DNA from: Mariprofundus sp.
Lineage (GTDB): Bacteria > Pseudomonadota > Zetaproteobacteria > Mariprofundales > Mariprofundaceae
DNA: 36,055 bases
Assembly: GCA_030951025.1 (NCBI GenBank)
Contig: JAUZQK010000109.1
Span: 1-36,055 of the forward strand
Reading direction: 5' to 3'
The notes beneath the pieces were generated by a model. That model was not told the origin of the DNA and ran no database searches. It was given only the letters and a program-made list of their open reading frames with translations. The first letter of the stretch is position 1. Every line of letters starts with the position of its first letter. Below are positions 33,422-36,042 of this stretch, one piece after another. The translations under genes and the position numbers were made by a program.

Positions 33422-33516
33422 ACCACAGAGTACGCAGAGCTACGCAGAGTAAACCTTAAAAAAATCATAGGGAATGCTTTTGACTTTACTCTGCGTAACT
33501 CTGCGTCCTCTGCGGT
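33422..33516. repeat. Bare 95-base inverted-repeat element in the trpG-trpD gap
   Basis: The left arm 33422-33453 and right arm 33485-33516 are 32 bases each and match at 29 positions when one is reverse complemented. Each arm contains three 7-mers of CGCAGAG type, starting at 33424, 33433 and 33443 on the left (steps of 9 and 10). The 31-base centre is AT-rich and holds no gene. The outer ends are ACC.../...GGT. It is related to the arms flanking the gene at 34637. Confidence 0.85.
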
Positions 33517-33534
33517 AAATAAAAGGGACATACA

Positions 33535-34566
33535 ATGAGTTCAACCATCGTTCAAATCATCGAAGGCCTTCAAGCCGGTAAAACAATCACGACTGAGGCT
33601 GCTGAAGCCGCCTTTACCAGCATCATGCATGGTGAAGCTAGCCAGGCTCAAATCGCAGCGATTTTGATGGGCTTGTCCATACGCGGAGAATCGGCGGAAG
33701 TGGTCGCCGGTGCCGCCAAAGCCATGCGTGCAGCAGCGACCCGGATCAAGCCCAAGGCTACCGGCCTGATGGACACCTGTGGCACCGGAGGCGATGGTGC
33801 CAAGACATTTAATATCTCCACCGCCGTTTCGATTGTCGTGGCCGCCTGTGGCTTAGCTGTGGCCAAGCATGGTAATCGCGCCATGTCTTCCAAGTCCGGC
33901 GCTGCCGATGTGCTGGAAGCGCTTGGTGTGAATCTGGATATCAGCCCACAACAGGTGGCCGATTGCATTGATGAGACCGGCATCGGCTTCCTGTTTGCCC
34001 AACACCTGCATCCGGCCATGCGCCATGCAGGCCCTGTACGGCGTGAATTGGGCATTCGTACCATCTTTAATATTCTAGGGCCATTAACCAACCCTGCTGG
34101 TGCAGACTACCAAGTGCTGGGTGTGTACAGCAAAGATAAACTGGAACTGGTGGCCAACGCCCTGCTGCAGCTCGGCAGCAAACGCGCGCTCATTGTACAT
34201 GGCCGTGACGGCCTCGATGAAATCACCACCACCGACATCACCGATGCCATTCTTATCGAAGCTGGACAGACACCCATTCATTTTGAAATTGATCCTGAAG
34301 CCTTCGGCATGCCTTATACTGTTAGCGAAGCATTGGCCGGTGATGATGCTGCCACCAATGCCGATATTCTAAGGCATATCTTCGCAGGCCAACCGGGAGC
34401 CGGTCGCGATATTGTATTATTGAATGCTGGTGCTGCCCTGTGGGTTGCTGGACGCGTCAACGGCATTGGTGAAGGCATTGGCATGGCAGCACGCGCCATC
34501 GACAGCGGCAAGGTGCAATCCACACTCGATGCGTTGATTGCTTTTACGCAACAGGCTTCTCGTTGA
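33535..34566 (+). CDS. trpD: Anthranilate phosphoribosyltransferase
   Basis: It joins anthranilate to PRPP in tryptophan synthesis. The 343-residue protein has the PRPP motif DTCGTGGDGAKTFNIST, KHGNRAMSSKSGAADVLEALG and the RRELGIRTIFNILGPLTNPA block. AGGG (33524-33527) lies 7 bases before the ATG, just outside the repeat element that fills the trpG gap. Its TGA stop abuts the left arm of the following element with no base between. Confidence 0.95.
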   Translation: MSSTIVQIIEGLQAGKTITTEAAEAAFTSIMHGEASQAQIAAILMGLSIRGESAEVVAGAAKAMRAAATRIKPKATGLMDTCGTGGDGAKTFNISTAVSIVVAACGLAVAKHGNRAMSSKSGAADVLEALGVNLDISPQQVADCIDETGIGFLFAQHLHPAMRHAGPVRRELGIRTIFNILGPLTNPAGADYQVLGVYSKDKLELVANALLQLGSKRALIVHGRDGLDEITTTDITDAILIEAGQTPIHFEIDPEAFGMPYTVSEALAGDDAATNADILRHIFAGQPGAGRDIVLLNAGAALWVAGRVNGIGEGIGMAARAIDSGKVQSTLDALIAFTQQASR

Positions 34567-35078
34567 ACCGCAAAGTACGCAATGGTGCGCAAAGAAAAAC
34601 CAAGAATTTCTTTTTAATGAATGTAGAAGTGCAAATATGACTTCAAAGCAAACGAATAACGAAGCTCAATACATCAATGCATTAAGTCGAAAGATATTAG
34701 ATGCGGCCATGACCGTTCATAGCACCCTCGGACCCGGATTACTTGAATCAGCTTATGAGCACTGTCTTTTGTATGAACTAGGTAAGCACAGCGTACAAGC
34801 CCTGTCACAGGTTCAGCTACCAATTGTGTATGACCAGCAAAAAATTGAAGCAGGATATCGGATTGATATATTGGTCGAAAACAAGATTATTGTGGAACTA
34901 AAGGTTGTCGAACGGTTGTTGCCTATTCATGAAGCTCAACTACTTTCCTACCTTAAATTGGCAGATAAGCGCTTAGGGTTGCTCATTAATTTTAACGTCA
35001 ATCAATTACGACATGGCATCAAAAGGATGGTCAATGATTTCTGATTTTAACTTTGCGTACCTTTGCGTACTTCGCGGT
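34567..35078 (+). mobile_element. 512-base inverted-repeat unit carrying a GxxExxY gene, inside the trp cluster
   Basis: The left arm 34567-34594 and right arm 35051-35078 are 28 bases, match at 25 positions in inverted orientation, and start ACCGC. Each arm has three 7-mers of CGCAAAG type; left starts are 34569, 34578 and 34588 (steps 9 and 10), and the right arm mirrors this. They enclose one gene. The unit begins immediately after the trpD stop and ends 8 bases before the trpC start. No transposase gene or target duplication is seen, so the mobile-element label is inferred. Confidence 0.6.
34637..35044 (+). CDS. GxxExxY family protein (PD-(D/E)XK nuclease-like)
   Basis: This is a 135-residue protein. 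The signature G-LL-E-SA-Y (GPGLLESAYEHCL) identifies the GxxExxY family. RIDILVENKIIVELKVV has the D...ExK arrangement of PD-(D/E)XK nucleases, to which this family is assigned. Activity has not been shown, to my knowledge. I chose ATG 34637 over the open frame from 34538, because the family begins here and the upstream part runs through the repeat arm and trpD. The ribosome site is weak. Being flanked by inverted arms suggests it is cargo or the enzyme of the element. Confidence 0.85.
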   Translation: MTSKQTNNEAQYINALSRKILDAAMTVHSTLGPGLLESAYEHCLLYELGKHSVQALSQVQLPIVYDQQKIEAGYRIDILVENKIIVELKVVERLLPIHEAQLLSYLKLADKRLGLLINFNVNQLRHGIKRMVNDF

Positions 35079-35875: not shown

Positions 35876-35927
35876 AGACTTTACCGCAGCACCCCAGGGT
35901 GGCCTCTCTTGCTACGCATTCACCTTC

Positions 35928-35953
35928 AGGACGCAAGGGACGCAGAGGAGAGT
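35928..35953 (+). repeat. Decayed copy of the CGCAGAG repeat arm after trpC
   Basis: ACGCAAGGGACGCAGAGGAG resembles the arm sequence of the trpG-trpD element, with 7-mers at 35932 and 35941 (step 9) and an A-run following as there. The third unit is not clear. ACCGCAG at 35883 may be another remnant. The 180 bases after trpC (35876-36055) hold no gene I can support. Confidence 0.5.
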
Positions 35954-36011: not shown

Positions 36012-36042
36012 TTAGCCACGAATTACACGAATGGACACGAAT
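36012..36042 (+). repeat. Second repeat family: triple CACGAAT arm at the window end
   Basis: CACGAAT occurs three times, starting at 36017, 36026 and 36036 (steps 9 and 10), after TTAGC. A possible inverted partner would lie beyond the window. The sequence differs from the CGCAGAG family but the architecture is the same. Confidence 0.7.

Follow-up and report, generated by a model that had tools for sequence, protein, structure and literature searches.

REPtrons and TIRtrons are elements in which the gene for a tyrosine transposase, RAYT or TIRYT, is flanked by repetitive extragenic palindromes (REPs) or by terminal inverted repeats (PMC3733652). Paired sites of classes 1 to 3 in Geobacter metallireducens were interpreted as binding sites of a global regulator (IHF/HU); 21 of the pairs described have sites composed of three tandem TCTCCGTS[Y] repeats, one site on each strand (Aklujkar et al. 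2009, PMC2700814). Here we describe a 512-bp unit within the tryptophan operon of an iron-oxidizing, Mariprofundus-like zetaproteobacterium (genome of 2.2 Mb), in which a gene of the GxxExxY family lies between two inverted arms, each a triad of short repeats. The unit occupies positions 34567 to 35078 of the 36,055-nucleotide stretch of DNA that was analyzed, referred to below as the window. We consider it likely that this unit is a minimal mobile (selfish), REPtron-like element whose nuclease recognizes its own arms.

The likeness to a REPtron lies in a low-copy nuclease-type gene placed between inverted copies of a short repeat that is dispersed through the genome, in the many gene-less repeats of that genome, and in a location near the 3' terminus of the preceding open reading frame (ORF). 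The unit is nevertheless not a REPtron, because its enzyme is not of the HUH type and its arms are not palindromes. RAYT is an HUH/Y1 enzyme, whereas the gene here encodes a predicted PD-(D/E)XK nuclease; a RAYT/HUH gene was rejected, as only PF13366 matched. A REP is itself palindromic and carries a GTAG-type tag, whereas each arm here is a nonpalindromic direct-repeat triad. The unit shares with DDE transposons and miniature inverted-repeat transposable elements (MITEs) the terminal inverted repeats and short gene-less derivatives with conserved interiors, but it lacks a target-site duplication, and the parent element is not a DDE transposon. The paired sites of G. metallireducens look like the same kind of arm, but the accessible main text of that article links them to no gene and proposes no mobility (PMC2700814).

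Because kinds of mobile element are defined by their enzyme, the unit would count as a new kind despite its REPtron-like layout, provided that the enzyme is more than an accessory. On balance we lean toward the view that such units form a new class of autonomous element in at least ten phyla, in which a lone Cas4/RecB-type PD-(D/E)XK nuclease directs the movement of triad-armed DNA, large gene-less families in the operons of many environmental bacteria included, and the arms co-evolve with it. To our knowledge, no PD-(D/E)XK nuclease has been reported to drive a stand-alone mobile element. The literature searched, from which most subscription journals and bioRxiv were absent, contained no function or repeat association for GxxExxY (TIGR04256/PF13366) and no paper tying Geobacter-type triad arms to this family. 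It also held no match to arm 15- to 16-mers, and on links between repeats and nucleases it yielded only unrelated or REP/RAYT work.

The unit between trpD and trpC

The unit consists of the following features.

34567-34594, + strand: left arm, ACCGCAAAGTACGCAATGGTGCGCAAAG; three tandem CGCAAAG-type units with spacing of 2 and 3 nt; outer end ACC
34637-35044, + strand: GxxExxY gene; 135 amino acids (aa), predicted PD-(D/E)XK fold with E37, D77, E87-x-K89, and Q101-x3-Y105
35051-35078, - strand: right arm, inverted triad, reverse complement ACCGCGAAGTACGCAAAGGTACGCAAAG; outer end GGT

The left arm directly abuts the TGA stop codon of trpD (34564-34566), and 8 nt separate the end of the right arm from the ATG of trpC (35087). 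A 168-aa ORF reading starts inside trpD; the actual start of the GxxExxY gene is at 34637. The two arms are identical at 25 of 28 positions, and a repeat search of the window extended the pair to 34567-34606 and 35039-35078 (80% over 40 nt). The ungapped inverted-repeat score was 22.0, compared with a maximum of 14.2 in 420 trials with shuffled flanks. A reading made earlier from the letters alone (the sequence-only reading) had described 28-base arms around one PD-(D/E)XK-like gene, fitted between the trpD stop and trpC, and had assigned the gene to the GxxExxY family; both descriptions held. The source genome contains a second intact unit on another contig (C107, L006; inverted-repeat score of 19.8) and a 5'-truncated gene that retains its right arm (L008 on C37). 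Matches to a two-unit CGCARAG pattern numbered 30 in this genome, versus 0 for the reversed control pattern.

The protein matched TIGR04256 (GxxExxY; 148.9 bits against a cutoff of 35, E = 7e-44) and PF13366 (PDDEXK_3; 144.3 bits against a cutoff of 22, E = 3e-42). E37, D77, E87, K89, and Q101 were invariant in 59 sequences, and the catalytic residues, including Q101-x3-Y105, were nearly invariant across 92 armed elements. The GxxExxY gene is under purifying selection (dN/dS of 0.04 to 0.31). No solved structures related by sequence were found. An AlphaFold2 model (pLDDT 95.7, pTM 0.89) resembles Cas4 SSO0001, which together with lambda-type exonucleases gave the best PDB matches, as well as LHK-Exo, lambda exonuclease, and the Cas4-like ACE1; it also resembles small viral PD-(D/E)XK nucleases (best E value of 5e-10). 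The protein models as a minimal single-domain nuclease of the Cas4/lambda exonuclease/RecB branch of PD-(D/E)XK, with which it shares the fold and the catalytic order E...D...ExK plus QxxxY. It differs in being a 135-aa single domain that is flanked by arms, and its locus here lies outside any CRISPR or Red-type locus. Weak matches to Cas4 profiles point the same way as the fold, but we do not class it as a Cas4 because the Fe-S cysteine cluster is absent (C43 is the one cysteine); the tryptophan operon context likewise offers no CRISPR link.

Association, co-divergence, and movement of arms and gene

Full-length PF13366 genes were taken from 398 genomes of the phylum, 63 of which were positive, and from 80 loci in other public genomes. 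Each was searched for an inverted repeat between the 300 nt upstream of the domain and the 300 nt downstream of the stop codon, with no arm pattern assumed. Removal of duplicates left 140 nonredundant GxxExxY genes from about ten phyla. Matching inverted arms enclosed 98 of these (70%), comprising 47 of 60 in the family of the window and 51 of 80 elsewhere. The corresponding figures were 4 of 183 for other ORFs of the same loci (Fisher P = 3e-43), 1 of 420 for shuffled flanks, and 29 of 420 for swapped partner flanks, and these controls rule out chance pairing of the arms. Outside the family, armed genes were found in Acidobacteria, Planctomycetes, Bacteroidota, Chloroflexi, Cyanobacteria, Alpha- and Deltaproteobacteria, Nitrospinota, Cloacimonadota, and others. 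Arms accompany GxxExxY genes elsewhere not only as these inverted pairs but also as triad doublets beside many of the other genes.

Most arms are built on the skeleton ACC-RC-NNA(G/T), which recurs every ~8 to 10 bp but varies in letters and spacing (unit variants CGCAGAG, CACGAAG, CACAAAG, CACTAAG, CACCAAG, CACAGAT, CACGAAT, and CACGGAA). Two loci have unusual arm units (CTACGGAACGACGG in L181 and CACTGAGACGGTGAGGCAGTGAG in L218) and retain the ACC-outward layout. At two others (L206 and L225), GxxExxY genes carry direct rather than inverted triads, an arrangement common to two lineages with unrelated outer flanks. Finally, L096 and L224 have a complete bare hairpin on each side of the gene in place of single arms.

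Arm distance was correlated with protein distance across the 98 armed elements (Mantel rho = 0.37), within the family (rho = 0.54), and after dereplication at 60% identity (rho = 0.32), and in each case 0 of 2,000 permutations gave as high a value. Mapping of arm class onto the protein tree required 18 changes, compared with 46 when shuffled. The division between AG and AT/AA arms, named for the last letters of the unit, falls at a fully supported branch (100) of the protein tree, with 2 changes in all, and the AA class forms one clade. Where a single genome carries two arm classes, each class goes with its own protein, so host lineage does not explain arm class. The paired arms of one element were also more alike than same-class arms from different elements (24.6 versus 12.5 in the largest class). 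Protein residues that separate the classes include 35, 38, 39, 104, and 108, which lie beside E37 and Y105; they are candidate specificity determinants and not proven ones, because they divide just two deep clades.

The limits of the unit were evident at loci from Deltaproteobacteria (L163), an unclassified bacterium (L164), and Nitrospinota (L166), whose units are 81 to 87% identical in nucleotide sequence between the outer arm ends, with no recognizable homology in the flanks beyond. Eleven species of the genus carry the trpD-trpC unit, some of them as a deleted or frameshifted copy. Not all relatives have it: the site is empty in 6 congeners and in three outgroups, where trpD and trpC lie 0 to 32 bp apart or overlap. 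In two near relatives, a different gene and arm pair occupies the site. Between two genomes (G011 and G006), arms and gene have been replaced jointly there within flanking DNA that is 90 to 93% identical. The gene at trpD-trpC either has diverged more rapidly than the DNA beside it or has been replaced, and it does not share the divergence of the neighboring genes. A unit also follows radA in Bacteroides finegoldii, and the same junction is empty in Parabacteroides. Between fabD and fabG, Sphingomonas parapaucimobilis has a GxxExxY gene with the left triad only, and the junction of S. paeninsulae is shorter, of empty-site length. No pair among the compared genomes was close enough to fix the exact preinsertion sequence. 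The general marks of a mobile element, occupied and empty orthologous sites and presence at unrelated sites, are found. Genome comparison thus shows that the arms and gene form one unit, with homology bounded by the outer arm ends and with copies at unrelated sites and in unrelated phyla, and that this unit has moved between genomes. The sequence-only reading had proposed that arms and gene belong together, and joint replacement, shared boundaries, and co-divergence all agree with it.

Gene-less (bare) copies are ~70 to 250 bp long and have interiors that are conserved within a genome. In a comparison of 74 genomes from the family, the median number of CGC-class arm doublets was 10 where a GxxExxY gene was present and 0 where it was absent (P = 1.5e-6), and GAT-class doublets tracked the AT-class gene (P = 6e-6 overall and 4e-4 among gene-bearing genomes); these P values carry no phylogenetic correction for genomes that share ancestry. 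CGC-class arm number did not differ significantly between genomes with AG-class genes and those with AT/AA genes only (P = 0.15), a comparison in which G013 and G007 were counted as AT/AA only yet have degraded AG-class genes at trpD-trpC, and in which the gene-bearing G005 and two genomes with gene fragments were filed as having none. One bare copy, between dnaX and ybaB, is present in G011, G006, G013, G000, and G135 and absent from G009 and others, with a possible footprint in G007. By these counts, gene-less pairs are numerous mainly in genomes with a present or recent gene of the matching class. Arm numbers that follow the resident gene class support the earlier suggestion that a bare copy near the trpD-trpC unit is its nonautonomous relative.

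Proposed mechanism and alternative explanations

The proposed element is ~0.45 to 0.55 kb long, with ACC/GGT outer ends, arms of three ~9- to 10-bp repeats, and a single gene. Its protein would bind the arm triads of the same element, probably as several protomers along repeats of near-helical period; alternatively, the arms may pair as a hairpin or cruciform when bound. The nuclease would cut at the outer arm ends and thereby promote copying or excision, and host replication or repair would do the joining. Bare copies would be internally deleted derivatives mobilized in trans. The element would settle just after the stop codons of co-directional genes and would therefore be transcribed with the host operon, doing little harm. 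Cutting or binding of the arms is supported indirectly, through protein-arm co-divergence and the conserved active site.

Of the 77 elements whose ACC end is clear, 63 are located no more than 80 nt beyond the end of an ORF in the same orientation, and 11 directly adjoin its stop codon. Target-site duplications flush with the arms were not found (0 of 76 at k = 3, 2 of 76 at k = 4, and 0 of 76 at k = 5), and a classic insertion sequence or MITE with target duplication was rejected on this basis. A homing endonuclease element was rejected as well, since the units occupy many unrelated intergenic sites, most of them immediately past a stop codon.

Several observations weigh against an autonomous mobile element. 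A 135-aa single domain has no obvious strand-transfer activity, and Foldseek E values against the PDB were weak (best, 2e-3). Strong inverted arms were lacking for 42 of the 140 genes, many of which have one-sided or direct-orientation triads, and some of these genes may therefore be decayed or host adopted. Nearly all sampled members of the AT/AA arm class come from a single bacterial family, and some contigs in metagenome bins may be contaminants, although the differing flanks speak for separate sites. Low abundance also fits poorly with a highly active transposon: genomes carry few GxxExxY genes (1 to 5), 8 of 72,556 plasmids and 0 of 50,697 phage records have one, and viral contigs gave one match, itself armed. 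This near-absence led us to reject phage or plasmid cargo.

The GxxExxY protein might bind or process the arms while another enzyme acting in trans, through host recombination or an unrelated transposase, mobilizes them, the gene being an accessory, regulator, or immunity factor. A tiny, single-domain protein without a known strand-transfer domain and the absence of target duplications would suit such a role, and Cas4-like nucleases serve as accessory factors in CRISPR adaptation. We find this explanation unlikely, given that no second gene goes with the unit, that cross-phylum homology stops at the arms, and that the catalytic residues almost never vary. Passive spread, in which host homologous recombination swaps cassettes between recombination-prone arms and the nuclease serves a host or defense function of its own, would account for whole-unit replacement at one site in close relatives and would be compatible with purifying selection and with weak Cas4 profile matches (best E value of 0.0028, in PADLOC). 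It is very improbable in light of empty sites that have no resident arm for recombination and of arms of different spacing exchanged at one site, which implies limited homology between arms; decayed and deleted gene copies are, moreover, common among the loci, unlike what is expected of a needed host gene.

It could also be that the arms are host regulator sites (IHF/HU type, as proposed for Geobacter) or RNA hairpins of operons, with GxxExxY as a passenger. Bare arm pairs are scattered in intergenic regions and able to form stems, and such pairs were taken for regulator sites in Geobacter (PMC2700814). Yet GxxExxY genes lie between arms in 70% of cases versus ~2% for other ORFs, arm class switches along with the protein inside single genomes, cross-phylum homology spans exactly arm, gene, and arm, and genomes that lack the gene have next to no arms. 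We give this explanation hardly any weight.

A mobile element that recognizes its own arms would, if confirmed, assign a function to a very widespread uncharacterized protein family and explain triad repeats across many environmental genomes that were formerly taken as regulator sites. The co-variation of arm and protein, together with the candidate specificity residues 35, 38, 39, 104, and 108 beside the active site, would let recognition be tested in vitro using the 135-aa protein and 28 bp of DNA.

Other arms in the window and repeats within arms

The window holds four further arm features.

33422-33449, + strand: left arm of a bare copy between trpG and trpD
33489-33516, - strand: right arm of this bare copy, separated from the left arm by 39 nt
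35883-35947, + strand: lone interrupted arm downstream of trpC; the insert CACCCCAGGGTGG...TTCACCTTCA, also present in arms elsewhere in the genome, divides its first unit
36015-36042, + strand: other-class triad GCCACGAATTACACGAATGGACACGAAT near the contig end; no partner arm in the window

The triad at 36015-36042 belongs to the GAAT class, and its partner arm or gene would sit on an unjoined contig. A second small repeat of ~50 bp (CACCCCAGGGTGG...CTCTCTTGC..CGCAATTCACCTTCA) is inserted in the outermost left-arm unit of the interrupted arm at 35883-35947, of L014, L020, L024, L034, and L036 in the source genome, and of L044 in G011. A third repeat (GACGTGCAGGATGCACAAATGCCGCAGGCGCATGGATGCGCAGGCGCGGCC) lies inside the outermost unit of right arms at L040, L043, and L055 (trpD-trpC) and at L022 (source genome); judging from it, the ends of arms look like preferred places for insertion. 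Bare copies carry further conserved outer flanks, TTGAATAACAGATTCAAAA in G000 and AATCGCATTAAA in G011 (L016, L018, L021, L024, L025, L035, and L036 in the source genome; L231 to L249 in G011), which suggests larger composite repeats.
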